Source of the DNA: Nonlabens xiamenensis
GTDB taxonomy: Bacteria > Bacteroidota > Bacteroidia > Flavobacteriales > Flavobacteriaceae
Assembly (NCBI RefSeq): GCF_003865345.1
Contig: NZ_RMVE01000002.1
Coordinates: 558,001-622,000, forward strand
Direction: 5' to 3'
Length of the DNA: 64,000 nt
The notes under the pieces are model-generated. The model was given only the letters and a program-made list of their open reading frames with translations, made no database searches and had not been told where the DNA came from. This document shows positions 3,395 to 63,261 of the stretch, piece by piece; within the stretch, counting starts at the first letter, position 1, and each line of letters begins with the position of its first letter. Both the position numbers and the translations under genes were made by a program.

Positions 3395-4032
3395 TGATCA
3401 AAGTCTGCGGCATGCGGGAATTGGACAATATCCAGGAATTACAACAGTTGGATCTGGATTTTATGGGACTGATCAGGTATCCAAAATCCAAAAGATTTGT
3501 AAATCATCAACGCAAGCAGGAGATCGGCCAGCTGCAAATGAACAAAGGGACTGTGGGTGTATATGTCAATGAGTCGTTGGAGAACATACTGAAGGATATC
3601 ATCCCCTTACAATTGGATGTCATACAGTTACACGGTGATGAGGATGTCGCTTTCGCGAAAGCGATATTAGAGTTAGACTTGAAAGTTTTTAAGGCGATTT
3701 CGATGGGTACAGAGATGGATATGAATAGGGTAAAAGAATGGTCGAATCTGGGTCAAAGATATCCTGGGAAGTTTTTTCTTTTGTTTGATACAGCTACTCC
3801 CGAATATGGTGGATCTGGAAAAAAATTTGATTGGTCCCTGTTGGCCGATTATAATGGAAAAGTACCGTTCTTGCTCAGCGGCGGACTGAGCCCAGACGAT
3901 GTGGAAGCCGTCAAGGCCTTTAAAAACGAAATGTTTCTGGGGGTCGACCTTAATTCAGGCTTTGAATTGGCGCCCGGAGTAAAAGATATCGAGGCTATTA
4001 AAAGCTTCATTAAACAAGTTAGAGATGAGTAA
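3391..4032 (+). CDS. trpF: phosphoribosylanthranilate isomerase
   Basis: TrpF carries out the Amadori rearrangement of phosphoribosylanthranilate. The N-terminal IKVCGMR motif holds the catalytic Cys, the [18 protein letters not shown] segment holds the catalytic Asp and substrate loop, and [11 protein letters not shown] is the phosphate-binding strand. The length of 213 residues is normal. One copy of the palindrome lies inside the gene at 3649-3662 and encodes AFAKA in the middle of the protein. Start is at MMIK or one codon later; the stop overlaps trpB by 8 bp. Confidence 0.95.
3649..3662. repeat. palindrome GCTTTCGCGAAAGC, in trpF
   Basis: Perfect copy; encodes AFAKA inside TrpF. Confidence 0.95.
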
Positions 4033-5197
4033 ATATCAAGTTGATTCCAATGGGTTTTACGGCGAGTTTGGCGGTGCTTTTATTCCCGAACTCTTATACC
4101 CCAATATTGAAGAATTGAGGGACAATTACCTAGAAATTGAAAAGTCCGCCGAATTTCAGCAAGAGTTCAAAGCCTTACTGAAAGATTATGTGGGCAGACC
4201 CACACCTCTTTTCCTGGCACGGAGACTTTCAGAAAAATACGGTGCTCAGATATACCTTAAACGAGAAGACTTGTGTCATACCGGCGCTCACAAAGTCAAT
4301 AATACCATAGGTCAGATTATTTTGGCTGAAAAACTGGGCAAAAAACGTATTATCGCAGAGACCGGTGCTGGTCAACACGGTGTTGCCACCGCTACTGTTT
4401 GTGCCCTAAAAGGCTTGGATTGTATCGTGTATATGGGAGAAAAGGATATTGAACGTCAGGCTCCCAACGTCGCCCGTATGAAAATGTTGGGTGCCGAAGT
4501 CAGACCGGCGACAAGCGGATCAAAGACCTTAAAGGATGCCACCAATGAGGCGATGCGGGATTGGATCAATAATCCAGAGGACACCCATTACATCATCGGA
4601 TCCGTAGTAGGCCCACATCCCTACCCTGATATGGTCGCCAGATACCAATCTGTCATTTCCGAAGAAATAAAAAACCAGTTGGAAGGCCTGCCCGATTATG
4701 TGATTGCCTGTGTAGGTGGTGGTTCCAATGCCATGGGTGCATTTTATCATTTCCTGGATGACGAGGAGGTTCAACTTATAGGTGTAGAGGCAGCTGGCTG
4801 GGGAGTTGAAACGGATAAAACTGCCGCAACGCTCAGCTTGGGAACACCTGGTGTTCTGCACGCCAGTAGGTCTATTATGATGCAGGATGCCGATGGGCAA
4901 GTCATTGAGCCTCACAGCATCTCAGCTGGTTTGGATTACCCGGGTATTGGTCCTGCGCACGCCTGGTTAAAAGTAAGCCAAAGAGCAACTTATATGGCAG
5001 TTACCGATCAATCAGCGCTGGAAGCGGCCACTGAGGTGAGCCGACTGGAAGGAATTATTCCCGCGTTAGAAACCGCTCATGCCTTCTCCGTGCTGAAGGA
5101 TCTTAATTTAAAGCCAACTGATAAGGTCGTCATCAATCTTTCGGGAAGAGGTGATAAGGACATGGATACGTATATGAAAGAACTCAACCTTAGATAA
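4025..5197 (+). CDS. trpB: tryptophan synthase beta chain
   Basis: TrpB condenses indole with serine using PLP. The 390-residue protein shows the PLP lysine in [13 protein letters not shown], the phosphate-binding GGGSNAMG loop, the catalytic Glu region [14 protein letters not shown], and the C-terminal [10 protein letters not shown] motif. It is the standard TrpB1 type, which works with TrpA; it overlaps trpF and trpA follows after 8 bp. Confidence 0.98.
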
Positions 5198-5205
5198 CAC
5201 AAGCC

Positions 5206-5970
5206 ATGAAAAACAAGCTGACCGAATTATTAGCTACCAAACCCAGCCAACTACTTAATATTTTCTTTACTGCAGGATATCCGCAGATAGAAGATACCAA
5301 TCGAATTCTTTCTGCTCTTGCTACTGCTGGGGTAGATCTGGTAGAAATAGGTATTCCATTTAGCGATCCGTTGGCCGATGGACCTACCATACAAGAGAGT
5401 TCAAAAAAAGCCTTGGAAAACGGTATGTCTATCGAGCGTCTATTGAGCCAATTAGAAAAGCAGGACTTAGACTTGCCCGTATTATTAATGGGGTATCTCA
5501 ATCCTATACTGCAATATGGTATGAAGAATTTCTGCAAGCGATGTCAAGAGGTGGGCGTGGATGGTTTGATTATTCCCGATCTTCCTCTTCAGATTTATCT
5601 CAACGAATTTTCAGGTGTGTTTGAGGAGCATAGTCTAAGTAATATTTTCTTGGTAACTCCGCAGACTTCAGAACAGCGAATTCGGGAAATTGACCGACAT
5701 AGCACTGGATTTATTTATGCTGTGAGTTCTGCCAGTACTACAGGTAGCAAAAACCAATTTGCAACCGCAACTGACTATTTGAAGAAGTTAAAGGATATGC
5801 AATTGGAGACACCCATACTCACAGGTTTCAATATCAAAACCCAATCTGACTTTAAAACTGCTTGTGAATACGTGGACGGCGCCATTATCGGTAGCGAATT
5901 TATCCGACAAATAAGCCATGGTGAGCCACTAGAGGATAAGGTAAAAGGTTATGTTCAGTCAATCAGGTAA
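5206..5970 (+). CDS. trpA: tryptophan synthase alpha chain
   Basis: TrpA cleaves indole-3-glycerol phosphate and channels indole to TrpB. Family signatures are FFTAGYP near the N-terminus, the catalytic Glu in LVEIGIPFSDPLADGP, the catalytic Asp in IIPDLP, and a shortened glycine-rich end. Length of 254 residues is normal. It is the last trp gene; no strong terminator is visible in the 109 bp before hisL, so some read-through toward the his attenuator is possible. Confidence 0.97.
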   Translation: MKNKLTELLATKPSQLLNIFFTAGYPQIEDTNRILSALATAGVDLVEIGIPFSDPLADGPTIQESSKKALENGMSIERLLSQLEKQDLDLPVLLMGYLNPILQYGMKNFCKRCQEVGVDGLIIPDLPLQIYLNEFSGVFEEHSLSNIFLVTPQTSEQRIREIDRHSTGFIYAVSSASTTGSKNQFATATDYLKKLKDMQLETPILTGFNIKTQSDFKTACEYVDGAIIGSEFIRQISHGEPLEDKVKGYVQSIR

Positions 5971-6039
5971 GTTCGTTTTGCTGTAATTGCTGCTATCATA
6001 GGAATAAATTCTTAAGAAAGGATTAATTTTTATGGATTC

Positions 6040-6053
6040 GCTTTCGCGAAAGC
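6040..6053. repeat. palindrome copy, upstream of hisL
   Basis: Perfect copy, intergenic, 26 bp before the hisL start. Confidence 0.95.
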
Positions 6054-6079
6054 TGAATGCGTCTTACCTTTACCCCATC

Positions 6080-6133: not shown

Positions 6134-6194
6134 TAGAAATGTATTGATGTCACTCAACATATTATCAACCGTCTGTTATACAGGCGGTTTTTTT
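6123..6194 (+). promoter_or_regulatory. his attenuator: antiterminator and terminator pair
   Basis: The terminator hairpin pairs AACCGTCTG at 6167-6175 with CAGGCGGTT at 6181-6189 around a 5-nt loop, followed by a T-run to 6194. The alternative pairing joins AACAGGCG (6123-6130) with CGTCTGTT (6170-6177). The two structures exclude each other because they share the 6170-6175 segment. The competing segment is the end of the leader peptide frame, as transcription attenuation requires. Confidence 0.88.
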
Positions 6195-6252
6195 GTTTTA
6201 TAACTTAAGATTTGCTTGCATACAGACCCAAAAGCTGAAACGCACAAACAAA

Positions 6253-7104: not shown

Positions 7105-8396
7105 TGAAGATTTATACCCATCCAGTCCCTTCGGATCAAATTTCGTTACTGGAACGTCCACAACAACAAAAGCAACAAGTTGATGAGGCGGTACAAGAGA
7201 TTATCGGACTGGTGCGCCGGAATGGCGACAAAGCCTTGTTGGCTTTTGCAGAAAAATTTGACAAGGCTCAATTGAACCAGCTCCAAGTGTCTCCCGAAGA
7301 AATTCAGACCGCAGCCGAATTACTATCGCCCACGCTCAAAGCAGCCATTCAAACTGCCTATGAAAATATATATAGGTTTCACGAGGCTTGTTTTACGAGG
7401 GACTATCCTGTGATCAATACCATGCCAGGTATCAAATGTTGGCGCAGGTCCATGCCAATTCAAAAAGTCGGACTTTATATTCCTGGAGGTACCGCTCCCC
7501 TATTTTCTACAGTTTTGATGCTAGGGATACCAGCCAAAATTGCCGGAAACGAGCAAGTCGTTTTATGCAGTCCTACAGATCAGCAAGGTAACATTCACCC
7601 TGCGGTTTTATATACGGCGCAACTTTGCGGTATCTCAGAGATCTACAAAACCGGAGGTGCACAGGCAATAGCAGCCATGACCTATGGAACCGAGAGTATT
7701 CCTGCAGTCAACAAAATTTTCGGACCTGGAAATGCCTTTGTAACCCGAGCAAAGGAGCTCTCACAACAAGCTGGTGTTGCGATTGATATGCCGGCAGGAC
7801 CCAGCGAGGTTTTGATCATCGCAGACGCCCAGGCTGACCCAGCCTTTGTAGCGGCAGACCTGTTGGCGCAGGCAGAACACGGTCCAGACAGTCAGGTGAT
7901 CTTGTTGACTGATAGTGTCGATCTGGCTCAAACTGTCCAGCAGAACATTGAAGAACAATTGGAGTCGCTTCCGCGAAAGCTAACCGCACAACAAGCACTG
8001 AAAAACAGTAAAAGCATTATTTTGACCAGCATTGAAGAATGCGTTGCATGGTCTGATGCCTATGCTCCCGAACACCTGATCATCAATACACAAAATGCAA
8101 CATCTTTAGCACAATCCATCAAGGTAGCCGGTTCGGTCTTTATCGGTTCATTGACCTGTGAGAGTTTGGGTGACTATGCCAGCGGTACCAATCACACCTT
8201 ACCTACCTATGGCTATGCACGTAATTACAGCGGAGTAAGCGTGGATAGCTTTGTCAATAAAGTGACCTTCCAGGAGGCAGATGCACAAGGCATTCAATTA
8301 TTGGGACCAGCCGTGGAAGCCATGGCCGCTGCCGAAGGATTGGATGCTCATAAAAATGCGGTAAGCCTTAGATTATCAAAAATCAAGAAATCATGA
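7104..8396 (+). CDS. hisD: histidinol dehydrogenase
   Basis: HisD oxidises L-histidinol to L-histidine in two NAD-dependent steps. The 430-residue protein has the family signatures [44 protein letters not shown], and the catalytic/zinc region [12 protein letters not shown] and APEHLII. A one-mismatch copy of the palindrome (7967-7980) lies within the gene. hisC overlaps by 4 bp. Confidence 0.97.
7967..7980. repeat. one-mismatch palindrome copy, in hisD
   Basis: GCTTCCGCGAAAGC; encodes SLPRKL in HisD. Confidence 0.8.
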
Positions 8397-9613: not shown

Positions 9614-10726
9614 ATGAAAAAAGTACTTTTTATAGACCGAGACGGAACCATTGTCAAAGAGCCTACAGTGGATTATCAACTGGATAGTTATGAGAAACTT
9701 GAATTTTTGCCCCAAGCAATCACTCAATTGCACCGCATTGCTCGGGAACTGGATTACGAACTGGTAATGGTCACCAACCAAGACGGATTGGGAAGCGATA
9801 GTTTTCCCGAGGATACGTTCTGGCCAGTACACCAATTGATGATGAACATCTTAGAAGGTGAAGGAGTACATTTCAGCGAGGTCGTTATCGATCGAACTTT
9901 TCCAGCTGATAATGCGCCCACCCGAAAACCAGGAACAGCCTTGCTGACTCACTATATCAAAGGTGATTATGACCTGGCAAACAGCTTTGTCATCGGCGAT
10001 AGAAATAGTGATATGCAGCTGGCCTTTAATTTGGGTTGCCGTGGTATACAATTACCCAGTATTACCGATGATAGTGACTTTGAAAAAGCTGAAGTGGTGG
10101 CACTAAAAACCGACAGTTGGAAAGAAATTTTTCAGTTTCTACGCGGACAACCTCGTAAAGCTAGTGTCAAACGCAAAACCAAAGAAACCGATATTCAAAT
10201 TGACTTGAACCTGGATGGCTCTGGTAATGGTACAATCGATACAGGACTCAAATTCTATGACCATATGCTGGAGCAGTTACAGCGACACGGGTCCTTGGAT
10301 CTGGACATCCATGTAGATGGGGATCTTGAAATTGATGAACACCATACCATTGAAGATACGGCAATTGCTCTGGGAGAGGCCTTTGCCAAAGCACTCTCTA
10401 CCAAAAAAGGAATCAACCGTTACGGCTTCCTGTTGCCCATGGATGATAGCCTGGCTCAGGTAGCTATTGATTTTGGGGGCAGACCTTGGATCGTTTGGGA
10501 GGCTGATTTCAAACGTGAATATATAGGGGATATGCCCACAGAACTATTTTTCCACTTTTTTAAAAGCTTTAGCGACGCAGCAAAATGCAATCTGAATATG
10601 AAAGTGGAAGGCGATAACGAACACCATAAAATTGAGTCACTATTTAAAGCTTTCGCGAAAGCGATAAAAATGGCAGTCAAACAAACTGGGGATGGAAAAT
10701 TACCCTCAACCAAAGGAGTATTATGA
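9614..10726 (+). CDS. hisB: bifunctional histidinol-phosphatase / imidazoleglycerol-phosphate dehydratase
   Basis: The N-terminal half (about residues 1-165) is a HAD phosphatase with [12 protein letters not shown] and the Lys/Asp motifs RKPG and IGDRNSDMQ. The C-terminal half (about 175-370) is the dehydratase, with [18 protein letters not shown] and the His-rich [16 protein letters not shown] metal-binding motif. The fusion is the E. coli-like HisB. The enzyme acts at two separate steps of the pathway. A palindrome copy (10649-10662) encodes AFAKA near the C-terminus. hisH overlaps by 4 bp. Confidence 0.97.
10649..10662. repeat. palindrome copy, in hisB
   Basis: Perfect copy; encodes AFAKA in the HisB C-terminal half. 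Confidence 0.95.
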
Positions 10727-11376: not shown

Positions 11377-11390
11377 GCTTTCGCGAAAGC
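11377..11390. repeat. palindrome copy, before hisA
   Basis: Perfect copy ending 3 bp before the hisA ATG. Confidence 0.95.
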
Positions 11391-13149: not shown

Positions 13150-13458
13150 ATGCATACATCACCTAATTTTTCAAAATACCCAGACGGACTCGTGCCAGTG
13201 ATTGTTCAAGATGACGACAGTCTACAGGTATTGATGCTCGGATATATGGATGAAAAGGCATTCTCGCTTTCGCGAAAGCAAAACAGAGTCACCTTTTATT
13301 CCCGCAGTAAAAAACGTTTATGGACTAAAGGAGAAACCAGTGGAAACTATTTGGACATCCGGGAAATACATTTGGACTGTGATCAAGATGCATTATTAAT
13401 TAAGGTAAAGGCACTCGGCCCCACTTGTCATCGCGGAACTACCAGCTGTTTTGACTAA
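13150..13458 (+). CDS. hisI: phosphoribosyl-AMP cyclohydrolase, stand-alone
   Basis: HisI opens the adenine ring of phosphoribosyl-AMP. The 102-residue protein carries MLGYMDEKAF, the WTKGETSGN motif, the DCDQDALL metal-binding motif, and Cys ligands in TCHRGTTSCFD. It stops immediately after that motif, where most Bacteroidota proteins continue through a linker into HisE. A palindrome copy (13266-13279) sits in the gene and here encodes SLSRKQ. The matching HisE domain is a separate gene at 14096. Confidence 0.95.
   Translation: MHTSPNFSKYPDGLVPVIVQDDDSLQVLMLGYMDEKAFSLSRKQNRVTFYSRSKKRLWTKGETSGNYLDIREIHLDCDQDALLIKVKALGPTCHRGTTSCFD
13266..13279. repeat. palindrome copy, in hisI
   Basis: Perfect copy; encodes SLSRKQ in another frame. 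Confidence 0.95.
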
Positions 13459-14834: not shown

Positions 14835-15874
14835 TTATTTTTTGAGATGATAGTCCAAGCCACCCACATGGGTGGAATGAAATTTACTCATGGCCATTTT
14901 AACCCCTTTCTTATACGCCTCGGCATTGGTAGAGATAGCTAAGTTCGCGTTACACGATCTCCAGAAGTAGCTATAGGCTCAAAACTGGCTACTCCCGTAG
15001 TGAGTCCCTGCCCTTGCGATACTTTTGCTTTTGTTTTTTCTATTACACCGTCGATTTCAAGCGCTTTTTTGATCAGCCCATTATAGGTATTACCTCTTTC
15101 ATCGGTAAAATTGATCACTGATTGAATTTTCCAGATGTCATTGGAGCCTTTAAACCTGAGACCTTTCTTTTTTTTCGGCACTCTTATAATCATAAGCGAC
15201 CAGGCGCAAGTTAGTTTTTATTTTTACAGTAGCACCACTAGGATTCCAGCCTTCTTTCATTTCTTTAAACATGACGTAAAGATTTACTTTGGCCACCAAC
15301 GCGTTCCCTAATTCTTTGGAAAGACTTTTATTGGAATTGATTTCGGCGTCCCCCAGCAATCCGAAACCTTTCTTCTCTCTTCCTTTTTTGTTCAGACCTT
15401 TCACATAATACTCATGCCCAGTAGGTGTTACGGTAATCATTCCTGGGATCTCAGTAGGTATTACTTGTCCACCAGTTCTTTTGGTAAACTCGGCATAAGT
15501 TTCTGTGCTTCCTACTTGATCTATACCTATGATTTCCAGGCCTTTACTTTGAAGGTCGGCCACAAATTCTTGATATAATTCATCAGTAATCTTTTGTAAA
15601 TCAGCCGCAACAATACCTTCCAAGCTTAGGGCTAGTTTGGCTTTGGCGCCATCTCTTGCGCTTCCATCTCGATTATTGCTACCAGCCTTGTAGCTTACCG
15701 CATCCCTAAACATTTCAAAATTTGTTCTGAATTGCGCTATGTACACCTTTTTTTGAGCTTTTTAGGTGACATGCTTAAGTGTGTCGATTCTTTAAATTCT
15801 CCTAATGACTGCGCTTTCGCGAAAGCGAAACAACAGGTAGCGAAAAGGACACATAAAATCGTTTTTGTATTCAT
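14835..15874 (-). pseudogene. frameshifted secreted-protein gene
   Basis: The start at 15874 opens a signal peptide ending FAFAKAQS, coded partly by the palindrome at 15813-15826. The frame breaks in an A-run near 15760, then continues from 15746 to 15150, breaks again in an A-run near 15170, continues to about 14940, and needs a third shift to reach the natural end (GGLDYHLKK and stop at 14835). Reassembled, it would be a secreted protein of about 345 residues. I do not recognise the family. Three shifts, two in homopolymers, mean either a pseudogene or local sequencing error. Confidence 0.75.
15813..15826. repeat. palindrome copy, in a decayed signal peptide
   Basis: Perfect copy; encodes AFAKA in the signal peptide of the pseudogene starting at 15874. 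Confidence 0.95.
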
Positions 15875-21068: not shown

Positions 21069-22094
21069 TCATTTCTTGATGCTGGGCACACGTCTCTGGA
21101 ACAATAAATCAAATTCTGTACTGCCACTGGTGGTGCTATCTGGGTAGTATAGTTTGCGGAAGATGAAGCGTTCATCCAGTCTACCCAGATTTTTATAAGT
21201 CTTATGGCGCTTAGTCCAGTCACCAGTACGCGTGTCTGTGCTGGTGCTGTACTGCTCGATCATGATTTCATTTTTGGCCAGTTCTTTTCTTTTTTCAAAG
21301 AGCGCTTGGGGCGATGTCTGGATGGCCTTTTTCAATTCTTTAATGGTTTCTGCGCTGGACTTACTGCTTCTAATCTTATAAAGACCTGTGAAGTCCAAAA
21401 CATGGATCAATGGCCTGTTTTGAGTCGTACGGGCAAAAGGTTGTCCGTCGTGATAATAGATCGTTTTAGACCTCAACATCTCACCAGTTTCTGAAAAGGT
21501 TTCTTCTACCACGCTAAGTAAATGGTTGCCTGTACCGCCGTAATAAAAATAGGCTTCCTTGCGCTCGCCTTTGCGAGGTGTCATGACAGCGCGCACGACC
21601 AGATCATCTTCATATTCATACGTAGTGGCGTAATTTGTATAACGGCCTGTAGCTTTTTCCTTGAGGATCCTACCCTGATCATCGTGCTCAAAGGTGATAA
21701 GGGCATCAAATCCACCTGCGCTGGTTTTGCGCACGATGCTGTCCAGTCGCTTACCGGCGTAGAAAAATTCATCAAAGGTTTCTGACTTGTACGATCCTAA
21801 AATTTGGCGGTAATCCTGAATTTTAAGTCCGTTTTCATTATAGTTCAATACTTCCAGCATCACAGGTTCATATCCCAGACTATCTGCTTTGTAGGTCGCC
21901 GTTTGAACCCTGTACACTCGATTTTTTGACGGTGCCTCATCCTGGTAGATTGCTGGTAGTCCTATATGTTGTAAATCTGCAGGTGTTTGTGATGATACCG
22001 CTTTCGCGAAAGCGAAAAAAACAACCACCAATAGCGTTTTTATGTTTCTTTGAGGTAGGCATAAGCCGTAGTGTAAATTGATCATAATTGCCAT
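21069..22094 (-). CDS. secreted YD-repeat array protein
   Basis: About 341 residues from the ATG at 22094. The hydrophobic core and signal peptidase site (VVVFFAFAKAVSSQ) include a palindrome copy at 22000-22013. Repeats such as YNENGLKIQDY, FEHDDQGRILKEK and YEYEDDLVVRAV are YD-type, and the C-terminus carries the shared module TGDWTKRHKTYKN with FRKLYYPDSTTSGS. The start is uncertain: the stretch before KTLLVVV looks non-coding and an ATA codon stands where an ATG would be expected at 22043. It follows the gene at 22158 at close spacing and is probably in the same unit. Confidence 0.8.
   Translation of the reverse strand: MAIMINLHYGLCLPQRNIKTLLVVVFFAFAKAVSSQTPADLQHIGLPAIYQDEAPSKNRVYRVQTATYKADSLGYEPVMLEVLNYNENGLKIQDYRQILGSYKSETFDEFFYAGKRLDSIVRKTSAGGFDALITFEHDDQGRILKEKATGRYTNYATTYEYEDDLVVRAVMTPRKGERKEAYFYYGGTGNHLLSVVEETFSETGEMLRSKTIYYHDGQPFARTTQNRPLIHVLDFTGLYKIRSSKSSAETIKELKKAIQTSPQALFEKRKELAKNEIMIEQYSTSTDTRTGDWTKRHKTYKNLGRLDERFIFRKLYYPDSTTSGSTEFDLLFQRRVPSIKK
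22000..22013. repeat. palindrome copy, in a signal peptide
   Basis: Perfect copy; encodes AFAKA in the array protein at 21069-22094. Confidence 0.95.
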
Positions 22095-24985: not shown

Positions 24986-26746
24986 CTACAAATTACCCCA
25001 CTTCCCACCTGGCAACTTCACGGCCATAAAAATCTTGTTATTGAAGTGCCAGACTTGTGCTTTCAAGGGCATGGTTTGTCTGTAGACCGTAAGTTCTTTT
25101 TTGGAACTGTTGACTTTAAGGGTATCACTTGTAAATTTGAGATAATGCTGGTTGAAGTAATCGGTTGCTTGCTGTGCGCTCTCAAAAACCAATTCCACCT
25201 CTTCCAAAACTCGTGGGGCGCTGCTGGTAAATTTGTACTGCGCATACTTGAAAGGTGCACCGGTATAGATCACGGCATGATTGGTCTGTCCAGGAACGGT
25301 GTTGAAGTCCACAGGACTGTTTTGGATCGCATTGTGAAATTCTACGGCGCTCACATTGAATCCCATTTTCTTTCCATCAAATACAAATAGCTCATTAAAT
25401 GCCGCTCCAGACATTTCTGGCGGATTGATCTTGTGGGCATTTTCAAGATCTCTTGTTTTGTACTGTCCTACTCCTGCAGTAATTGCGCGGTAGTAACGTA
25501 TGGTCTCCAAACCATTTTCTCCCGTTATCTTCACATTGACATTGATGTGACCATTATTCAAGAGAAAATCTGGAGGCATCAATTGATCCTCAAAAGGTTT
25601 GAAGCCCAAAAGTTTTTGCCGATCGTTTTCAAAAGTGATGGTTTCTGTCATCAGTTCCTGATTGCGGGAATCGTACACCCTAAACTCGGCTTGCTTGATC
25701 TTTACGGGATCAAAAGATTGATCCAGCGTCAAATAAAATTGTGGTTGTGCCTTCTCATCCAGAAACAAAGTGCTCTTCAGGTCGATGCGGGAGTCTGGTT
25801 TTAAATCGGCATACTTTTCTGGGTAGAGAATGTTAGCCTCTGCAAAAAATAAGGCCTCACGCGCCATGATTTTATGAGCTGCATAAGAGATGTAACCGTA
25901 GCCTTTATCGCCCCAACTGGTTCCCCAAGAGTTTTTGAAAATAAAGCCTTTGTCATTAAAACCTACGATCGTCACCACATGACCACCGTAATTTTGACGG
26001 GTGCTCCCATCTTCCATTTTGGTCGTAGGTTCGATCAGGTAATAGGGAACTTTACCGCTAAAGATATCTGCGGTAAGATCACCTTCATAGGAATTGAAAA
26101 CATCTACATAGCGTTTGTTACCTTCAGGCAGCTTTAAACCTATTGTGGGCAACAGCGGATTCTCTGCAGAAATCTTTGCCTGCGACCAGGCCGGTGCGTG
26201 AACATAAGTATAATGCACAGCTATACTGGGCACGCCTGCGGTAAGCAGTCGCTTCATCTCATCAATATCATGAGCGACAGTTTGATCATAATAGATAAAA
26301 TCCTTTTCTAAAATTCCGTTGCTGGCAAACTGCTGAAACTGATATAAACCTATGCTTCCTACCTGTGCGCCCTTGATCAATCTGGTAAAATCGTTGGTAT
26401 CGCTTTCCCACTCGAGTGGCTCCCCATGGTACGGCATGACCTCTTCGCTCACCACACCATAAGTGGCCAGTGGTTTTTTGTAGCTGCTTAAAAAAGCGCC
26501 TTCTTCATAAGTCACGCCCGGCTGGCTGTGCTTTAGCGCTGCATATAGATATTGCTCGCTCACATCTGCTGGCATGGCGGGTACGGTTTCCAGAGCCGCT
26601 GCCACCCCAAAAGCCGTACAAGTCCCACGCAATCCCTGGTGTTTTACCGGCGTTTGTACGTGACGATAATCTATGCCTTGGGCTGTTGAGAATTCCGCTT
26701 TCGCGAAAGCGAGAACAACTAAAAAAATGGGTAAAATTTTATTCAT
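24986..26746 (-). CDS. secreted papain-like (C1 family) cysteine peptidase
   Basis: The 586-residue protein has a signal peptide whose end (VVLAFAKA, residues 10-17) is coded by a palindrome copy. The peptidase domain follows without a long propeptide: oxyanion Gln37 and nucleophile Cys43 in KHQGLRGTCTAFG, His256 in GGHVVTIVGFN and Asn272 in KNSWGTSWGDKGYGYISY, the complete C1 set. Residues about 290-586 form a beta-rich C-terminal region of unknown role. It sits in the middle of the array, 12 bp after the gene at 26759, so it may be co-expressed and act on the array proteins; that link is inference. Confidence 0.93.
   Translation of the reverse strand: MNKILPIFLVVLAFAKAEFSTAQGIDYRHVQTPVKHQGLRGTCTAFGVAAALETVPAMPADVSEQYLYAALKHSQPGVTYEEGAFLSSYKKPLATYGVVSEEVMPYHGEPLEWESDTNDFTRLIKGAQVGSIGLYQFQQFASNGILEKDFIYYDQTVAHDIDEMKRLLTAGVPSIAVHYTYVHAPAWSQAKISAENPLLPTIGLKLPEGNKRYVDVFNSYEGDLTADIFSGKVPYYLIEPTTKMEDGSTRQNYGGHVVTIVGFNDKGFIFKNSWGTSWGDKGYGYISYAAHKIMAREALFFAEANILYPEKYADLKPDSRIDLKSTLFLDEKAQPQFYLTLDQSFDPVKIKQAEFRVYDSRNQELMTETITFENDRQKLLGFKPFEDQLMPPDFLLNNGHINVNVKITGENGLETIRYYRAITAGVGQYKTRDLENAHKINPPEMSGAAFNELFVFDGKKMGFNVSAVEFHNAIQNSPVDFNTVPGQTNHAVIYTGAPFKYAQYKFTSSAPRVLEEVELVFESAQQATDYFNQHYLKFTSDTLKVNSSKKELTVYRQTMPLKAQVWHFNNKIFMAVKLPGGKWGNL
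26697..26710. repeat. palindrome copy, in the peptidase signal peptide
   Basis: Perfect copy; encodes AFAKA at residues 13-17. Confidence 0.95.
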
Positions 26747-42961: not shown

Positions 42962-43333
42962 TTATAATTGTTTCCAGATTCTGGCATAGGTACTGAGTAG
43001 TTTTTCATTCAGTCGTGCTAATTCTGTTAGACCCAGCCCCTGGAGTTTTTCATTGTTCTTCTGATTAAAGGTATAAAAAGAATGGCTTAGTTCATCCAAT
43101 TCCCTTAGCATCAGTCGGTCTTTGTCGGTCAGGTCACGCTTTCGCGAAAGCAATTCCTTTTTCAAACACTGCAACCTATATTTTTCAGTGACTAGCATTT
43201 TTTGATACAGCCTTTCCTGTCTAAAAAAGATACCGCCAAGTACAAGGGCGGTAAGCCCCACCAGGATTACCCCTAACCAATCCTGGGTTGCCGCACGCGC
43301 CGATATCTGAATAAGTGAAAGCATGGAGGCCAT
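42962..43333 (-). CDS. small membrane-anchored coiled-coil protein
   Basis: The 123-residue protein has one membrane helix at about residues 18-38 (WLGVILVGLTALVLGGIFF) and then a charged helical, probably coiled-coil, cytoplasmic part to the end. No catalytic motif. A palindrome copy (43138-43151) encodes LSRK. It starts the signalling operon, 9 bp before the response regulator, and might be an accessory of the kinases. Confidence 0.75.
   Translation of the reverse strand: MASMLSLIQISARAATQDWLGVILVGLTALVLGGIFFRQERLYQKMLVTEKYRLQCLKKELLSRKRDLTDKDRLMLRELDELSHSFYTFNQKNNEKLQGLGLTELARLNEKLLSTYARIWKQL
43138..43151. repeat. palindrome copy, in the coiled-coil gene
   Basis: Perfect copy; encodes LSRK. 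Confidence 0.95.
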
Positions 43334-46670: not shown

Positions 46671-49600
46671 ATGAGCAACATTTATTCTTACTTGACGGTT
46701 TTGGTTTTCTTCGCTTTCGCGAAAGCGACCACCGCACAAACCACTGCCAACAACGCATCAAATCGCATCAACACCAGCCAGCTTGCTATACCAGCAGCAC
46801 CAGAAGAAGAGAAGTTTTATGCATCTCAGGAATTCAGGCTTTTGGGACCTTTCAGGGGTGGAAGAAGTGCTGCAGTAACCGGAGTACCTGGAAAACCCAA
46901 CCTTTTTTATTTTGGAAGCACAGGTGGAGGTGTTTGGAAAACTGAAGATGGTGGTCGCAGCTGGAGGAATATTTCTGATGGTTATTTTGGCGGCTCAATC
47001 GGGGCAGTAAGTGTAGCTCCCAGTGATCATAACGTAATATACGTAGGTGGTGGTGAAAAAACACTCAGAGGAAATGTATCCAGCGGCTACGGGATGTGGA
47101 AGAGTGTAGATGCAGGAAAAAGCTGGACTCCTTCTGGACTGCCCACCAGCCGTCATATCCCGCGAATTGCTATTGACCCCAACCATCATGATGTGGTCTA
47201 TGCGGCCGTTCTGGGTAATATCTATCAACCTACCGATGAACGCGGCGTATATAAATCTGTAGACGGTGGAAAAACTTGGACCAAGAAGCTTTTTGTCAAT
47301 GACATGGCTGGAGCGGTTGATCTGATCATAGACCCCAGCAATCCCAGAAACTTATATGCCACAACCTGGAGAGTCCAGCGCACCCCTTATAGCTTGTCCA
47401 GCGGCGGTGAGGGAAGCGCGTTGTGGAAAAGTACAGACTATGGAGAAACATGGAAAGAAATATCCACCAATGAAGGCTTTGCCGAAGGCACGTTGGGAAT
47501 CATGGGAATCACCGTTTCACCCCTGGATGGCGACAGACTTTATGCAATTGTAGAAAACAAAGACCAAGGTGGGGTTTACCGCAGCAATGACGGTGGACTC
47601 AGTTGGACCAGGACAAACGATGATCGCAGCCTAAGGCAACGCGCCTGGTACTACACCCGGATTTATGCCGACACTGAGGATATTGACAAATTGTATGTGG
47701 TCAACGTGTCCTACCATAAAAGTACCGATGGCGGAAATAGTTTTTCCAGTGCAAGGGCGCCACATGGGGATCACCATGACCTCTGGATTGCACCAGAAGA
47801 CCCGAACCGAATGATTATTGGCGACGATGGTGGCGCACAAATCACCTACGATGGCGGAACCACCTGGAGCACCTATCACAATCAGCCCACCGCACAATAC
47901 TATCGCGTAACTACAGATGATTCATTTCCTTACCGCATTTATGTTGCACAACAAGACAATGGAACTATCAGGATCCCACACCGCACCAGCGGCTATAGCA
48001 TCACCGAATCTGACTGGGAAGGGACGGCTGGCGGAGAAAGCGCCCATATTGCGGTAGACCCTACGAATAATGATATAGTTTTTGGTGGTAGCTACGGCGG
48101 TTTCCTGACCAGATATAATCACAAAACTGGATCTGTAAGGGCAGTAAACGTTTGGCCAGATAACCCTATGGGACATGGCGCAGAAGGAATGAAATACAGA
48201 TTCCAGTGGAACTTCCCCATCTTTTTTTCCAAACACAGCCCTGAAAAATTATATGCATTTTCCAACAATGTACATGTGACCACCAATGGAGGTCAAAGCT
48301 GGGAGACCATTTCCCCAGATCTGACCCGCAACGACCCGACAAAATTAGTTTCCAGTGGAGGTCCGATCACCCAAGACAATACTGGGGTAGAATATTATTG
48401 CACCATCTTTGCCGCAGCGGAGTCCCCAATAAAGGCTGGCGAACTTTGGGTAGGTAGCGACGACGGTCTGATCCATCTTTCCAGAGATGGCGGAAAAAAG
48501 TGGGAAAATATCACGCCAAAAAAACTACCCGAATGGGCCCAAATCAATAGCATTGAGCCCAGTAGATATGATCCTGCTACTTGTTATGTAGCCGCTACCC
48601 GTTATAAGTTGGGTGATTTTACACCCTATCTATACAAAACCAGCGATTACGGTAAAACCTGGAAAAAAATTACCAGTGGTATTGCACCTGAACACTTTAC
48701 CAGAGTGGTACGTGAGGATGATGAAGTCAAAGGCATGCTTTATGCTGGAACCGAAACCGGCTTGTATATTTCTACCGATGACGGCCAGTCCTGGCAGTCT
48801 TTTCAAATGAACTTGCCCGTTGTTCCCGTGACTGATCTGGCAGTCAAGGAAAGTAATCTGATAGTGGCCACCCAAGGTAGGAGTCTGTGGATCCATGACG
48901 ATTTAGGTTTGGTAAGACAGTCTTTTGATGACAACAAAGCCACTACCAAAGATGATATATATCTTTTTGCTCCTAAAACTGCCTATCGAATGGAAGGTGG
49001 ATCGCGAGCAGGCTCACTTACCAGTGGAACCAACCACCCTTCTGGTGTTCTGGTAAATTTTTACTTGCCAAAAAATGTATCTAAGGACAGTGTTTCTCTT
49101 TCTTTTTACGACAGCAAAAAAGAGCTGATCAAGACCTTTTCTACCTATGATAAAGAAAACAAACTCAACGTGCAGCAGGGTGCCAATCAATTCCAATGGG
49201 ATACCCACTATGATGGTGCAGAAAAACTACCTGGGATGATTCTTTGGTGGGCAAACTTATCTGGCCCCAAAGCTGTCCCAGGCGATTACACAGTCGAATT
49301 AAAAGTCCAAGATCGCAGTCTAAGTAAGGATTTTGAAATTATATCAAGTCCAGAAAGTGAAGCCAGCATTGCCGACATGCAGGCGCAATTTGAATTTGTT
49401 AATGAGGTAAATGCAACGGTGAATCAGGCGCATCAGTCCATCAAAAATATTCGGTCTTTTACCCAAAAGCTCAATGATTTTGAACGTATTTATGGAGATC
49501 GGGAAGAAGAAGGTATCAAAGAAATGCTGGAATTGTCAAAAGCCATGAAGAATAAATTCTCTGAGGTGGAAAAAGCATTGTATCAAACCCAAAATCGCAG

Positions 49601-50256: not shown

Positions 50257-52284
50257 TCAAAAAAGCCATCGGATTCCGCCATATAAATTGATGGGCGCTG
50301 CCGGCTCAAAGTACCTACCTCCAAAGGCGTTAATACGTATATTATCATTATAAGACTGATCCAGCAGATTGTTGATTCCCAAAAATGGAGAAATCACCTG
50401 TTGTTTCCAGTGTAGATCGTAACTGGTATTTACATGCAGGAGAAAAACTTCAGGTTCAGTAACTGTGTTTTCATTGTCTGCATAGAGTGAGCCTCTATAA
50501 TTAGCTGTTATTTGAAATTGAAAATCCCGACGCCTGTGATCAAGTGTCAGGGCAGCATTATGCTTGGGAATTCCTGGTAGCGTCTTTCCATCCAGGTTAC
50601 CAACTGGCGTCTGAAATTTTCTATAGGAAAAATCAGAAAAGGTATAGGCACCTAACAGTTGAAAACTTTTGGACAGCTGTCGTTGATAACTAATTTCTAT
50701 ACCCAATCTTTCGGTGGAACCAGCGTTCCGGTAAAAAGTACGATCTGGAAAATCCTGTAGTTCAAAAGGCACCAAATCATCGTTGGTCCAGGTATAAAAA
50801 CCCGTTACTTGAATCCGATCAAAAGACCGGTCAATTTTATAGGCCAACTCGATATTTTGTGCTCTTTGAGGCCTTAAATCTGGGTTAAATCCGCCGTCAT
50901 TGTTGGGATTAGCACTCAATTCGCTCAAGGCAGGTGTTTCAAAACTGGTGCTGTAACTCAGGTGAAATGCCTTTTCCTGGTTGATCGAATAATTGGCTCC
51001 CAGGCTGGTACTCCAGGCATTGAGATTGGTTTGCGCGGTGGCATTCCCATCTGTCAACAAGCGATCTGCTACGGCTAGCCGATTCACATCATAGCGCAAA
51101 CCAGCCACTAGATTCCACCGACCACTGGACCATTTGTCCAGCAGATACGTACCCAAAGCACTAAATCGCTCATGCTGATTCAGTCGTAACTCCCCTTGAT
51201 CGCCCTCTAGATTATCAAAACGTTTCCGCAAGTCATTCTGATGACCAAAAGTGATACCTCCCTGGACTTGATTCTCAAAAGCTTCTTTTTTCCATTGGTG
51301 CTTGATAGAAGAACCTACCCCAAAATAGTTGCGATTCACCCCTACCTGTCCTCCATTCTCAAAGGGAAGTCGAGCTGCAAAATCTCTGTAACTATAAAAA
51401 GCATAGGAAGACCATTCAAAATTTGACCATCGATATTCCTGTGATGCGCCTACCTTAACTTGAGATACGTTTTCTCCCGCCTCAAAAATGAGGTTTCTAT
51501 CCCTGGCCTGTCGCCTTTGCGCTTCTACTTCGGTTGCGGTGAGTGATCCCGCATCCTGGGCCAGCGGACTATGTGCATAATTGACCAAGAAGGTATACGT
51601 CGCTTGGTCACTTGGTCTATGATGCCATTTGGTATTGAAATTATAGGTTTCAAATCCGCTGTGGTCACGGTAGCCATCAGATTTTGTGTGGCTACCTTGA
51701 ATCACCAAATCCTGCTGTTCACCCGCCCAGCCGACCACCACTTGCTCCTGTCGCAAACCATAAGCCCCAAGCATCACTGAGGGTTTGACAAAACTACTAT
51801 CGATATCCTGCAAGGTGGTAATGGAAATGGCACCACCGGAAGCATTGCCATAAAGCACAGAAGAGGAACCTCGTATGACTTCGATCTGATCGATGATCGC
51901 TAGATTGAGATTATCTAATTGACCTTGTCCATCGGGTGTAGTTTCTGGAATTCCATCGACGATAAGTTGGATTCCTCTGATCCCAAAAGCACTGCGACTC
52001 CCGAAGCCTCTGATAGAAATTCGAAGATCCTGCGCATAATTTTGGCTATTGAGATTAAATACGCCCGGGACACTATTCAAATACTCATCCAGGTGTAATT
52101 GTTGTTTGTTGTTTCCGCTTTCGCGAAAGCGCAATTTTGAAACACTAAAAGGAAGTTGCTGAACCTGTGACGGCAAGCGGTAGGACTTGATCAAGGTAGA
52201 GTCTAGGGTCTGTACAACCAGTGAATCCTGCTGGGAAAACACCGGTGCACCAACAAAAAATAAAAGCCAGAGCAACCTCTGCAT
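50257..52284 (-). CDS. TonB-dependent outer-membrane receptor
   Basis: The 675-residue protein has a signal peptide (LLWLLFFVGAPVFSQQ), a plug domain (about residues 40-160: LNSVPGVFNLNSQ, ISIRGFGSRSAFGIRGIQLIVDGIPE, IEVIRGSSSVLYGNASGGAISI) and a barrel ending in a strand that finishes with an aromatic residue (GGIRWLF). It resembles FecA/siderophore-type receptors; there is no SusD partner, so a metal chelate is more likely than a polysaccharide. A palindrome copy at 52117-52130 encodes RFRES. Confidence 0.93.
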   Translation of the reverse strand: MQRLLWLLFFVGAPVFSQQDSLVVQTLDSTLIKSYRLPSQVQQLPFSVSKLRFRESGNNKQQLHLDEYLNSVPGVFNLNSQNYAQDLRISIRGFGSRSAFGIRGIQLIVDGIPETTPDGQGQLDNLNLAIIDQIEVIRGSSSVLYGNASGGAISITTLQDIDSSFVKPSVMLGAYGLRQEQVVVGWAGEQQDLVIQGSHTKSDGYRDHSGFETYNFNTKWHHRPSDQATYTFLVNYAHSPLAQDAGSLTATEVEAQRRQARDRNLIFEAGENVSQVKVGASQEYRWSNFEWSSYAFYSYRDFAARLPFENGGQVGVNRNYFGVGSSIKHQWKKEAFENQVQGGITFGHQNDLRKRFDNLEGDQGELRLNQHERFSALGTYLLDKWSSGRWNLVAGLRYDVNRLAVADRLLTDGNATAQTNLNAWSTSLGANYSINQEKAFHLSYSTSFETPALSELSANPNNDGGFNPDLRPQRAQNIELAYKIDRSFDRIQVTGFYTWTNDDLVPFELQDFPDRTFYRNAGSTERLGIEISYQRQLSKSFQLLGAYTFSDFSYRKFQTPVGNLDGKTLPGIPKHNAALTLDHRRRDFQFQITANYRGSLYADNENTVTEPEVFLLHVNTSYDLHWKQQVISPFLGINNLLDQSYNDNIRINAFGGRYFEPAAPINLYGGIRWLF
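52117..52130. repeat. palindrome copy, in the TonB receptor
   Basis: Perfect copy; encodes RFRES in the N-terminal plug side. Confidence 0.95.
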
Positions 52285-57538: not shown

Positions 57539-58855
57539 TTGAAAAAGATAATTCTATTTCTATGTGTGTTCGCTTTCGCGAAAGCATACTCACAATCAAG
57601 CCCAGACTCAACCAAAGTCTATAAAAAAAGAGTTCTAGAAACGACCGAGGTAGATTTTTTGTCAAGCTATTACAGTCAAGATGGAGATAATGCTGCAGTA
57701 AGTGGTGGTATCGGTACAGAAGAATTAACTGATGTAACAGGCACTTTTGTAATCTCTATCCCTTTAAATGATGATGATGTATTAACCATTGATGCAGGTG
57801 TATCGGCTTACACCTCTGCTTCATCAAGTAATGTAGGTCCTTTTGATGACGGTCCAGCAGATCCTTTTCAGGCCTCTTCTGGAGCATCTGCGAGTGATTT
57901 ATGGGCAAACGTCACAGGAAGCTATAGTCATAGTTCTGATGATAGAAATGATATTTGGTCTGCCAAAATATCTGTTTCCACTGAGTACGACTACTTTTCT
58001 CTCGGTGTGGGTGGTACTTATACGAAACTCTTTAACAAAAAAAATACAGAACTAAGTGTCAGTGGGAACGTTTATTTAGATACTTGGAACGCAATTTACC
58101 CAACCGAATTAAGACCATTTGGAGAAGGTGGCAACGGGCTGAATAATCGTCTTTTTACCGAAAACACCATTACAGGCAACACTAATTATGCTCCGATATT
58201 TTCAAAGTTTTCTGATGAAGGACGAAATTCTTATTCCTTAGGTTTTGGCTTTTCGCAGATACTTCATAAAAACGTCCAAGGGTCGTTGGCCTTAGATTTT
58301 GTGCAACAACAAGGTTTACTATCTACACCTTTTCAACGTGTTTATTTTGGCGATCTGGCTGATTCATTTATCGATAACTTTCAACTTGCAGATGCGATTG
58401 AGCGTTTACCAGATTCCAGATTTAAAGTGGCTGTTGGTGGTCGTTTAAATTGGTTTCTGAATGAAATGTTTACCGCAAGGACATTCTATCGTTATTACTT
58501 TGATGATTGGGGAATCAATTCGCATACAGTCAGTATTGAAGTTCCTGTGAAAATTACAGATAAATTTACTTTATATCCATCATATAGATTCTATTACCAG
58601 ACCGCAGCAGATTATTTTAAACCGTATGAAGGTGCTTTATCTACAGATGAGTATTACACTTCAGATTATGACTTATCTAAGTATAGTGCAAATCAATTTG
58701 GTTTTGGATTATCTTACACCGACATTTTCGCGAGAGCGCATATCTGGAAATTGGGCTTAAAAAGTATAGACCTTAAATTCTATCAGTACGATAGGGATAC
58801 CACATTTAGCTCAAACATTATAACCACTGGATTTAAGTTTGTATTGGATCAATAA
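57539..58855 (+). CDS. DUF3570-type outer-membrane beta-barrel protein
   Basis: The 438-residue protein starts at a TTG with a signal peptide ending VFAFAKAYSQ, partly coded by the palindrome at 57572-57585. The mature part is a series of amphipathic strands (FVISIPLNDDDVLTIDAGVSAYTSAS, SVSTEYDYFSLGVGGTYTK, HTVSIEVPVKITDKFTLYPSYRFYYQT) typical of an outer-membrane barrel. It matches DUF3570 and follows the DUF4266 gene by 12 bp. Function unknown, possibly transport or display of a redox partner. Confidence 0.88.
   Translation: MKKIILFLCVFAFAKAYSQSSPDSTKVYKKRVLETTEVDFLSSYYSQDGDNAAVSGGIGTEELTDVTGTFVISIPLNDDDVLTIDAGVSAYTSASSSNVGPFDDGPADPFQASSGASASDLWANVTGSYSHSSDDRNDIWSAKISVSTEYDYFSLGVGGTYTKLFNKKNTELSVSGNVYLDTWNAIYPTELRPFGEGGNGLNNRLFTENTITGNTNYAPIFSKFSDEGRNSYSLGFGFSQILHKNVQGSLALDFVQQQGLLSTPFQRVYFGDLADSFIDNFQLADAIERLPDSRFKVAVGGRLNWFLNEMFTARTFYRYYFDDWGINSHTVSIEVPVKITDKFTLYPSYRFYYQTAADYFKPYEGALSTDEYYTSDYDLSKYSANQFGFGLSYTDIFARAHIWKLGLKSIDLKFYQYDRDTTFSSNIITTGFKFVLDQ
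57572..57585. repeat. palindrome copy, in the DUF3570 signal peptide
   Basis: Perfect copy; encodes AFAKA; the only copy inside the 53-60 kb island. Confidence 0.95.
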
Positions 58856-59550: not shown

Positions 59551-59558
59551 ATTGTAAG

Positions 59559-60310: not shown

Positions 60311-60333
60311 ATCGCATAGGATTATACTGATCA

Positions 60334-60368: not shown

Positions 60369-60450
60369 ATGACCCGTCTGATCTACTTTATTATTTCCTT
60401 GACAGGTAGGTTCAATTGAAGGTGATATCTTACACAAAACCAAAGAACAG

Positions 60451-61551: not shown

Positions 61552-61588
61552 ATAATAGAAAAACTAAACTTTGGGTGAGTTCGTTGAA

Positions 61589-62422
61589 TTATTCGGCATC
61601 CTCAATGGTTAATTCATCGTTTTCCCAGATACCACTGGTGACCACACTGCCATCTGAAGCATAAAATACCCCACGCCCGTTGCGTTTATCATTTTCCCAG
61701 GAGCCAACATATTTCTCACCGTTGGTCCAATAATAGGTACCTTGACCGCTGCGCTTGTCATTTACGTATTGCCCTTCATAATGTTGGCCATCGATCCAGT
61801 AAAAAGTTCCCTGACCATGGCGCATATTGTCTTTCCATTCACCTTCATAGCGGCTACCTGAATCAAGAATGGCGATACCTAATCCGTTGGCTTTTTTGTT
61901 TTTGACCTCGCCTACATAATGCAAACGGTTGCCTTTGGTGCTTTTAAAAGTGATATACTCTCCAAAAGCTTTTTCCATCATTTGCTTCTTGATGCTTTGT
62001 AATTGCATCTGGGCTTTTTCTAAAGCAAAACTCAAGGAATCATAAGCCTGTATTTCTGGTGTTTCAATCATACGATCCACCGGTACTCGCAAGGTGTCTC
62101 TGGGAGTAGAGGCGGTATCCAGGATATAAAGCCGGCGTTCCATCACGCTGAATTTCTGGGCCAGTTGACGTCTTAATTCCAAATCCATCGCCAGGTCTGA
62201 AGGCAAACTGTCGTATGTGGAAAGTACCTGTTCAAATTCACCTATTTCCAAAAGCGAATCTAATGTGCTGGTATAGCGATCACGGTCATAAGTGTTGGAT
62301 TGCTCCGACAAGGATTGTCTTAATTGGACCGTCTCTTCTTCCAAGCTAAAATATTGATAAGCAAAGTAAGATCCGAGCAGGATGACCAGGGCCAAAATTA
62401 TATAATAAAGACTTCGTTTCAT
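61589..62422 (-). CDS. membrane-anchored MORN-repeat protein
   Basis: The 277-residue protein has an N-terminal membrane helix (LYYIILALVILLGSYFAYQYF), a helical coiled-coil part (about residues 25-155) and four to five C-terminal MORN repeats (GSRYEGEWKDNMRHGQGTFYW, GQHYEGQYVNDKRSGQGTYYW, GEKYVGSWENDKRNGRGVFY). MORN repeats often act in protein or lipid contact. Confidence 0.9.
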   Translation of the reverse strand: MKRSLYYIILALVILLGSYFAYQYFSLEEETVQLRQSLSEQSNTYDRDRYTSTLDSLLEIGEFEQVLSTYDSLPSDLAMDLELRRQLAQKFSVMERRLYILDTASTPRDTLRVPVDRMIETPEIQAYDSLSFALEKAQMQLQSIKKQMMEKAFGEYITFKSTKGNRLHYVGEVKNKKANGLGIAILDSGSRYEGEWKDNMRHGQGTFYWIDGQHYEGQYVNDKRSGQGTYYWTNGEKYVGSWENDKRNGRGVFYASDGSVVTSGIWENDELTIEDAE

Positions 62423-62442
62423 GATTGGCTCAAATTAAGCAA

Positions 62443-63261
62443 TTAATCCCTAAAGTGGATTTCCGGCAACTTATTCTTGACCTTCCTGATGTCAGGCGAG
62501 AAATACAGGTGCATGCGCAATGTGTAATTCTGGTTGTAAAAAGCTGGATTGTCTAGGGTCTGTCCAAAACTATACATAAATCCAGCCGCCACGGTCAGTC
62601 TGGGATTGATAATGTATCCCAAGGTTGTATTCAATCGCAGATCTTCCAGCGGACTACCTACAACGGGTTTACCACTTTGCATGATCAATTCTGATTCTGG
62701 GGCTATATAAATGGCTTTGGATTCAAGCTTCGGTTTATTCAATGGGATTTTCATTCTGAACATATATCTCCAGCGGTTGCGGAACATATATTCATCCTCC
62801 TGATCAAAACCTTTGGACCAACGGTGCTCAATACGCAAGCGGTGATACGCCATCGCACTCCACAATGGGACGGCAAACTGATATTGATGCCAGATCCGGT
62901 ATTCGGGAATCATATTCTCTCCCGTAGATCCTGGATTGGTGTTGAAGTTTAAACGCAACACGCCTCCCAGGGCAAAATTGGCTTTTTTGTCGTAGATGTA
63001 ACCGATGGCATGACGATTATATATCTGTCCTACCTGGCCGATAAATGGAGTGTCTTCAGTCTCCTCAAATCTAAAATGGGTTTGGGCTACCCAAAACAGC
63101 CTTTTGGATATTCTAATATTCCCGTAGGTATTTACCCAATATTTTGTTTTGGGTTCCTTGAACTTGGACTCCTCCGGCAGCACTTCTCCTGGTTGCGCTT
63201 TCGCGAAAGCGAACACTAAACAAACCAGTGCAAGGACTAAATATTTAATCACTTTATTCAT
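62443..63261 (-). CDS. DUF2490-type outer-membrane barrel protein
   Basis: The 272-residue protein has a signal peptide ending LVFAFAKAQPG, partly coded by the palindrome at 63197-63210. The mature part shows barrel strands and the DUF2490-like pattern (YWVNTYGNIRISKRLFWVAQTHFRFEE, EYRIWHQYQFAVPLW, HRLRIEHRW). It lies between the MORN protein and the coiled-coil protein on the same strand. Confidence 0.85.
   Translation of the reverse strand: MNKVIKYLVLALVCLVFAFAKAQPGEVLPEESKFKEPKTKYWVNTYGNIRISKRLFWVAQTHFRFEETEDTPFIGQVGQIYNRHAIGYIYDKKANFALGGVLRLNFNTNPGSTGENMIPEYRIWHQYQFAVPLWSAMAYHRLRIEHRWSKGFDQEDEYMFRNRWRYMFRMKIPLNKPKLESKAIYIAPESELIMQSGKPVVGSPLEDLRLNTTLGYIINPRLTVAAGFMYSFGQTLDNPAFYNQNYTLRMHLYFSPDIRKVKNKLPEIHFRD
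63197..63210. repeat. palindrome copy, in the DUF2490 signal peptide
   Basis: Perfect copy; encodes AFAKA. Confidence 0.95.

Follow-up and report, generated by a model that had tools for sequence, protein, structure and literature searches.

A 14-base perfect palindrome, GCTTTCGCGAAAGC, recurs through a 64,000-nucleotide stretch of Nonlabens xiamenensis DNA (Flavobacteriaceae; assembly GCF_003865345.1, contig NZ_RMVE01000002.1, positions 558,001–622,000; hereafter the window). The motif is real, stronger than first described, and present throughout the genus and beyond it. We tentatively read it (probability of roughly 0.42) as a signal of self-recognition similar to DNA-uptake sequences, with a lattice of chromosome-organising sites as a close rival.

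Copy number, spacing and distribution

The window contains 16 exact copies, one single-mismatch copy (position 7967) and no two-mismatch copies, compared to a chance expectation of 0.25 at ≤2 mismatches (100 shuffles). These are the same counts as in a first-pass annotation, which placed them far above chance and described many copies as extending further, as do the 10 of 16 that reach the longer form CGCTTTCGCGAAAGCG. Across the whole genome (3,684,258 bases, 13 contigs) the 14-mer occurs 553 times and its reversed control not at all, so the repeat is not confined to the region of the window, where its density is higher (1 per 4.0 kb compared to 1 per 6.7 kb genome-wide). Within this genome (G000), a 400 kb stretch held 69 exact copies, 11 with one mismatch and 2 with two, whereas five third-order Markov sequences held an average of 0.8 two-mismatch copies and none closer. 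Both conditions under which the first-pass annotation would have counted as refuted therefore fail. In G000 the unit is nearly all-or-nothing: the octamer TTCGCGAA lies inside the full 14-mer in all 16 of its occurrences in the window and in 69 of 77 across the 400 kb stretch (8/77 outside; 5.5 expected for all), and TCGCGA outside the 14-mer is below expectation (400 kb). The unit is less sharp in the motif-rich genomes G274 and G258, with 44/64 and 34/49 octamers inside the 14-mer and an excess outside it (20 and 15, respectively), compared to ~3 expected in all by composition.

Copies repel each other and are kept at a minimum distance. Within the 400 kb stretch, none of the 68 gaps is <1 kb (10.8 expected; shortest gap, 1594 bp), and the coefficient of variation of the gaps is 0.58 compared to 0.98. 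In 13 stretches from Nonlabens, G274 and G258, only 8 of 282 gaps fall below 1 kb, where 55.3 are expected and no randomisation of 4000 gave fewer than 35; the summed squares of the gaps are likewise smaller than in every randomisation. This test omits the final 85 kb of one stretch of G010, which has a single copy, as most of it is an island. For single stretches, the coefficient of variation taken alone is weaker (G274, P = 0.02; G258, not significant, P = 0.08). In G010 the motif is as dense near parS (16 in 80 kb) as in that part of the opposite region which is resident (23 in ~115 kb). Clusters <1 kb were considered as pointers to the gene of a reader protein, with nothing consistent among them.

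All 22 other Nonlabens genomes carry 288–857 copies, the lowest number in a 78% complete genome, so that hundreds of copies are present in 23 of 23 genomes of the genus, as expected for a functional element. When a protein from the window was used as a query, the four best named hits were Nonlabens ulvanivorans, two Nonlabens metagenome-assembled genomes and strain BBFL7, and no other named hit had copies. Among 48 genomes from 48 other genera of the family, 41 have zero copies and seven have 1–6, and 47 genomes from other families of the order have none. A draw of 397 family genomes, four of them Nonlabens, added two rich genomes, G258 (408 copies) and G274 (857 copies), each the sole genome of its genus in the draw; the rest comprised 74 genomes with 1–19 copies and 317 with none. 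Of 395 genomes from across the phylum, 22 have a match, including the window's own, with 13 others in the family (≤6 copies) and eight outside the family with one copy each, no more than for the reversed control there. A RecA tree leaves the relation of the three rich lineages unsettled, a single clade not being rejected (approximately unbiased test, p-AU = 0.60). No comparable iterated palindrome was found in 76 loci from other Flavobacteriia (1.61 Mb; maximum, 3 copies per locus), a limited sample as all of these loci surround one gene.

Of 14 low-copy genomes of the family (2–19 copies) with places among the matches listed, 11 have two or more copies less than 50 kb from each other. Two copies lie exactly 933 bp apart in G169, G146, G283, G155 and G228, which otherwise nearly lack the motif. 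At the G169 and G283 loci both copies lie in one TolC-like gene adjoining an efflux-pump gene (families assigned by reading), and copies therefore travel with transferred genes.

The motif is absent from stretches of newly acquired DNA; with its even spacing and its tendency to stay in place over evolution, it looks like a mark of self or a scaffold site. G010 lacks copies for 82.7 kb (2,567,477–2,650,192), a stretch with a tyrosine recombinase (PF00589) near its start, followed by mostly same-strand small genes, and with 10–16 attC-like repeats in the 20 kb examined, the repeat word being frequent thereafter and absent before; on these features it looks like a chromosomal cassette array. The superintegron-like array itself occupies about 2,571,800–2,650,000 of G010:C1, with the tyrosine recombinase beside a sigma-70 gene, and one amidohydrolase-like gene start occurs three times in it (L290–L294). 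A second genome, G002, lacks copies for 91 kb (131,678–222,907; fraction of guanine and cytosine, 0.331 compared to 0.355) that contain thioesterase- and transporter-like genes (by reading), and the related Nonlabens phages P12024S and P12024L have zero copies in 71 kb. The prophage-like viral contig L082 (IMGVR_UViG_2617271332_000001) has three copies in 11 kb among the matches listed, which weighs against a simple rule of absence from newly arrived DNA.

Placement, anatomy and turnover of the sites

Based on open reading frames (ORFs) of ≥150 amino acids, 11 of the 16 exact copies in the window are within an ORF and five are outside (copies 2, 4–6 and 12; Table 1). The first-pass annotation had placed copies in all reading frames and twice between genes; all three frames are indeed used, and two becomes five. 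At larger scale, with crude ORF calls made without a trained gene finder, 73 of the 85 copies found in the window plus the 400 kb stretch are in ORFs, encoding AFAKA (n = 43), FRES (n = 18) or LSRK (n = 12). The first 150 nucleotides of ORFs are enriched (26 of the 73 copies, ~12 expected), and the AFAKA frame suits signal peptides at gene starts. The Nonlabens stretches encode 115 AFAKA peptides, and 100 of these use exactly the codons of the motif; therefore, the force acts on the DNA, and this count, the use of three frames and the intergenic sites rule out AFAKA as a peptide motif. Intergenic sites (68 of 295 in the 13 stretches) are in ~2-fold excess relative to the 10.6% of the sequence that is non-coding, and favour neither convergent nor divergent spacers.

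The flanks, aligned outward at 218 sites from eight Nonlabens genomes, are symmetric and alike in gene bodies, at gene starts and between genes. Position +1 is G in 84–89%, with A at +3/+4 and peaks of A at +7, +10 and +13, while G falls to 1–8% at +4 to +6 and stays scarce for the most part as far as about +18. With these arms, each strand is G/T-rich on one side and A/C-rich on the other. An origin of the flanks in signal peptides was rejected, the gene-body and intergenic sites having the same flanks. Each site has a symmetric core of 14–16 bp that is rigid, and arms that are soft and poor in G, from which we infer a footprint of about 50 bp. Around the common core there is a slight dialect at +2, which is A or G in G000 and T in G258 and G274.

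Turnover between species was followed in orthologous 40–64 kb regions from eight species (66–87% mean nucleotide identity). Of 308 ordered comparisons, 176 have an exact copy at the place aligned to a copy in the other species, compared to 3888 of 59992 (6.5%) for random 14-mers, though the ordered comparisons are mutually dependent and an alignment may be extended by a motif that lies close to its end. Retention is lower in the lineage of the window (14/69), and excluding that lineage it reaches 162 of 239 (control, 8.1%). The first-pass annotation had proposed checking for gain and loss of copies between orthologous genes; copies do turn over, alongside retention far above the control. Among the 132 places without a copy, 51 are ungapped and 1–3 substitutions away, 32 are ungapped with ≥4 differences and 49 align only with gaps. 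Substitution explains part of the turnover, on the evidence of the 51 near variants. Some variants are synonymous, such as GCATTTGCCAAAGC, which still encodes AFAKA.

Individual sites in the window differ in the species that share them (Table 1). The single-mismatch copy at 7967 aligns to exact copies in six species. The copy at 10649 is exact in G008, and five other species have synonymous non-copies with a copy 270 bp away, one suggestive case of a lost site replaced nearby that we do not claim in general. An orthologous copy of site 22000 in G015 was dropped, as the alignment is only 41 bp. Two further words are over-represented: the window has 62 copies of TGATCA, 3-fold above its composition, and the 400 kb stretch has 61 copies of TTGATCAA, a 5.8-fold excess.

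Table 1. Sites of the palindrome in the window, with position 1 as its first base; ORF functions are by reading.
Site	Position	Context (strand)	Frame or peptide	Aligned place in other species
Copy 1	3649..3662	inside ORF 3391-4032 (+)	AFAKA	exact in 3 of 4 alignable species (G016, G010, G003; not G005)
Copy 2	6040..6053	between ORF 5206-5970 and ORF 6193-7104		exact in G008; not in G016, G005, G010, G003; match in G002 only a 178 bp alignment beginning beside the motif
Single-mismatch copy GCTTCCGCGAAAGC	7967..7980	inside ORF 7104-8396 (+)		exact in G002, G016, G005, G010, G003, G008
Copy 3	10649..10662	near 3' end of ORF 9614-10726 (+), putative histidine-biosynthesis-like gene	AFAKA	see text
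Copy 4	11377..11390	just upstream of ORF 11394-12125 (+)		no copy in the 4 alignable species
Copy 5	13266..13279	between ORF ending 13011 and ORF starting 13497		no copy in the 6 alignable species
Copy 6	15813..15826	upstream of ORF 15150-15746 (-), outside ORFs ≥150 amino acids		
Copy 7	22000..22013	early in ORF 21069-22094 (-)	AFAKA	see text
Copy 8	26697..26710	signal-peptide-like start of ORF 24986-26746 (-)	VVLAFAKAEFS	
Copy 9	27624..27637	signal-peptide-like start of ORF 26759-27679 (-)	VVFAFAKAYPQ	
Copy 10	31834..31847	inside ORF 31495-32448 (-)	RFRES	
Copy 11	37552..37565	near 3' end of ORF 35976-37631 (+)	RFRES	no copy in the 6 alignable species
Copy 12	43138..43151	between ORF ending 42952 and ORF starting 44433		
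Copy 13	46713..46726	signal-peptide-like start of ORF 46671-49847 (+)	VFFAFAKATTA	exact in G016 and G003
Copy 14	52117..52130	inside ORF 50257-52284 (-), TonB-receptor-like	RFRES	
Copy 15	57572..57585	signal-peptide-like start of ORF 57539-58855 (+)	CVFAFAKAYSQ	
Copy 16	63197..63210	signal-peptide-like start of ORF 62443-63261 (-)	LVFAFAKAQPG	

Candidate roles of the palindrome

As a self-recognition signal, each site would be read by a symmetric, probably dimeric DNA-binding protein, and what would count is that any segment of a few kb has a site within its reach, so that a second site nearby would gain nothing. Natural transformation would favour the uptake or retention of DNA bearing a site, and recombination with DNA from kin would in consequence raise the number of copies and restore those lost, the same drive that acts on the uptake sequences in Haemophilus and Neisseria. 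Such a signal could account for the turnover by substitution, the dialect, the even spacing, the core with its flanks and the absence from new DNA, an account that we hold as tentatively as the reading itself. The retention at aligned places and the ~2-fold intergenic excess are also in its favour. The ComEC family (PF03772) was present in all 32 genomes tested, 23 of them Nonlabens. Also in the Bacteroidota, Riemerella columbina prefers its own DNA in transformation (PMC7965970); the signal search of that study, with words of up to 10 bp, lists only A-rich words. Of the features that define uptake sequences, the motif has hundreds of copies, restriction to a clade, even spacing and an accompanying ComEC, and departs from them as a perfect palindrome rather than an asymmetric word. 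The uptake signal sequences (USS) of the Pasteurellaceae and the DNA uptake sequences (DUS) of the Neisseriaceae share the many copies, clade restriction, dialects and core with weak flanks, along with placement mostly or often in ORFs with an intergenic excess and reported even spacing. USS and DUS are asymmetric 9–12-mers and denser, unlike the Nonlabens motif, which is a 14–16 bp perfect palindrome from the Bacteroidota. The first-pass annotation had likened the repeat to HIP1 of the cyanobacteria or to an uptake sequence; its genome-wide occurrence, in coding DNA and in all frames, agrees with either likeness, the HIP1 side of which is weakened below, and the uptake side appears to fit.

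Several observations weigh against an uptake signal. Genera that lack the motif have ComEC just as often, copies are also found on transferred genes in hosts without the system, and a few scattered, unexplained copies occur in other genomes of the family. The searches made here found no receptor or reader protein, and no report of natural transformation in Nonlabens turned up in a literature search that was not full. The density of the motif (~115–250 per Mb) is lower than that of the Haemophilus or Neisseria signals. Its palindromic form and the very strength of its even spacing tell against this role. Bakkali 2007 (PMC1939737) has uptake sequences as not being palindromes, though on evenness the same paper contains two opposed statements about known uptake sequences, one of them that Karlin et al. 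saw significant even spacing.

The palindrome may instead be a chromosome-organising lattice, a possible if somewhat less probable role in which the dimer of a nucleoid protein would bind the palindromes, bend the arms and bridge or anchor the chromosome about every 5 kb, with selection keeping one site per interval. The perfect symmetry and the ~50 bp footprint would suit a dimeric DNA-bending protein, and the even spacing with its exclusion zone, the equal density near parS and in the opposite resident region of G010, the positional retention and the absence from newly acquired DNA are all in its favour. Strong evenness is also what a passage of Bakkali 2007 (PMC1939737) expects of compaction signals. 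Against this, no candidate protein was found, and each of ~600 sites would need selection of its own. Known sites of nucleoid proteins have many near-copies, unlike the Nonlabens motif, for which these are few (the 11 and 2 beside 69 exact copies in 400 kb), though near-copies are more common in G274 and G258 than in G000.

A by-product of methylation, as proposed for the highly iterated palindromes (HIPs) of cyanobacteria, is unlikely; here an orphan methyltransferase with methylation-directed mismatch repair would ratchet sequences into the palindrome. HIP1 and the alternate HIPs are likewise palindromic, genome-wide, grossly over-represented and in genes of all kinds, and the excess of TTCGCGAA outside the 14-mer in G274 and G258 is what stepwise creation would give. 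In G000 the octamer is hardly enriched outside the 14-mer and TCGCGA is below expectation, and fourteen fixed bases are long for a methylase. Three methyltransferase classes (C5, N4/N6 and D12) were covered by a search for PF01555, PF00145 and PF02086, with type I, Eco57I-like and other enzymes outside it. These families were found in 12, 14 and 4 of the 23 Nonlabens genomes, respectively, with none universal and no match to any of the three in G007, G008 and G010 (664, 752 and 563 copies; 99% complete), so that a cognate orphan methyltransferase of these classes is missing from those three genomes. The HIPs, which have cognate methyltransferases, measure 5–8 bp and occur at ~500–2500 per Mb (Elhai 2015, PMC4390886), unlike the longer and sparser Nonlabens motif (14–16 bp, ~115–250 per Mb); that paper also has the HIP model predicting saturation at a set spacing, which counts in favour of a methylation by-product.

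A hotspot of recombination or repair, such as a symmetric Chi-like or replication-restart site with one copy per few kb, is similarly improbable. The even spacing of several kb, the two phages without copies and the G/T-rich and A/C-rich arms would fit, and Chi and the FtsK-orienting polar sequences (KOPS) are also over-represented signals spread along the chromosome; though Chi-type sites are short and polar, whereas the Nonlabens motif is longer and an exact palindrome that, as the first-pass annotation had reasoned, cannot be a polar signal like KOPS.

Sites for ParB or Noc, an earlier suggestion, gain no support here: the 23 Nonlabens genomes all have 1–2 canonical parS and an ordinary ParB of chromosomal size separately from the motif, with extra ParB-like proteins (602–616 amino acids) in only three. 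The sites of Noc/ParB, SlmA and MatP are also palindromes read by dimers, numbering in the tens with a regional distribution, unlike the motif, with 288–857 copies per Nonlabens genome and a presence in every resident region sampled. The ordinary parS and ParB and the lack of a genus-wide methyltransferase of the classes tested together make Noc-like and HIP1-type systems poor explanations. As separate observations, ParB-like proteins of 599–616 amino acids, twice the normal size, occur in G015, G018, G019, G033, G038 and G042, that is, in some Nonlabens and in other genera, with the one in G033 near that genome's six copies of the motif. In most Nonlabens two canonical parS cores lie 1.9 kb apart (e.g., G000:C5:457917 and 459810), whereas 20 of the 21 genomes examined from elsewhere in the family lack the exact 14-base parS core.

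Least of all is the motif likely to be a dispersed mobile or regulatory repeat (an element like the repetitive extragenic palindromes [REPs], a terminator or the operator of a global regulator), for which the palindrome, the ~2-fold intergenic excess and the 49 of 132 non-copy places that align only with gaps can be cited, since ~77% of copies are outside intergenic spacers (68/295 intergenic, where REPs and bacterial interspersed mosaic elements are almost only intergenic), no convergent or divergent excess exists and 51 of the 132 non-copies are simple substitution variants.

Novelty and significance

The 14-mer was absent from 5.39 million papers by text search, with most subscription papers outside the search, and no report of the motif was found among the titles and abstract openings listed for its core, HIP1, evenly spaced palindromes, Nonlabens palindromes, and over-represented palindromes with flavobacteria or uptake signals. 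The kind is known, a genome-wide iterated oligonucleotide under selection or drive, while a palindromic and even form without a shared methylase of the tested classes is new to the searches made. An exact palindrome at hundreds of even places, in all frames and at a cost to codon choice, implies a strong genome-wide force, for which natural controls exist in the limits of the clade, the dialect, and the islands and phages that lack the motif.

On balance it is rather probable that one sequence-specific protein of Nonlabens and the two other rich genera reads a rigid 16 bp palindrome with soft arms at hundreds of evenly spaced sites, in a system that would be new, either as a kb-scale lattice or as the first palindromic uptake signal. 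With much the same assurance, the motif would in either case mark DNA of long residence and leave out DNA newly arrived. If an uptake signal, it would be to our knowledge the first in the Bacteroidota, where uptake sequences would have arisen independently, and it could be tested as an explanation of the preference of Riemerella columbina for its own DNA. If architectural, the sites would provide a mapped lattice for testing the organisation of bacterial chromosomes. Under either reading, the motif would be an excellent bait for its protein.

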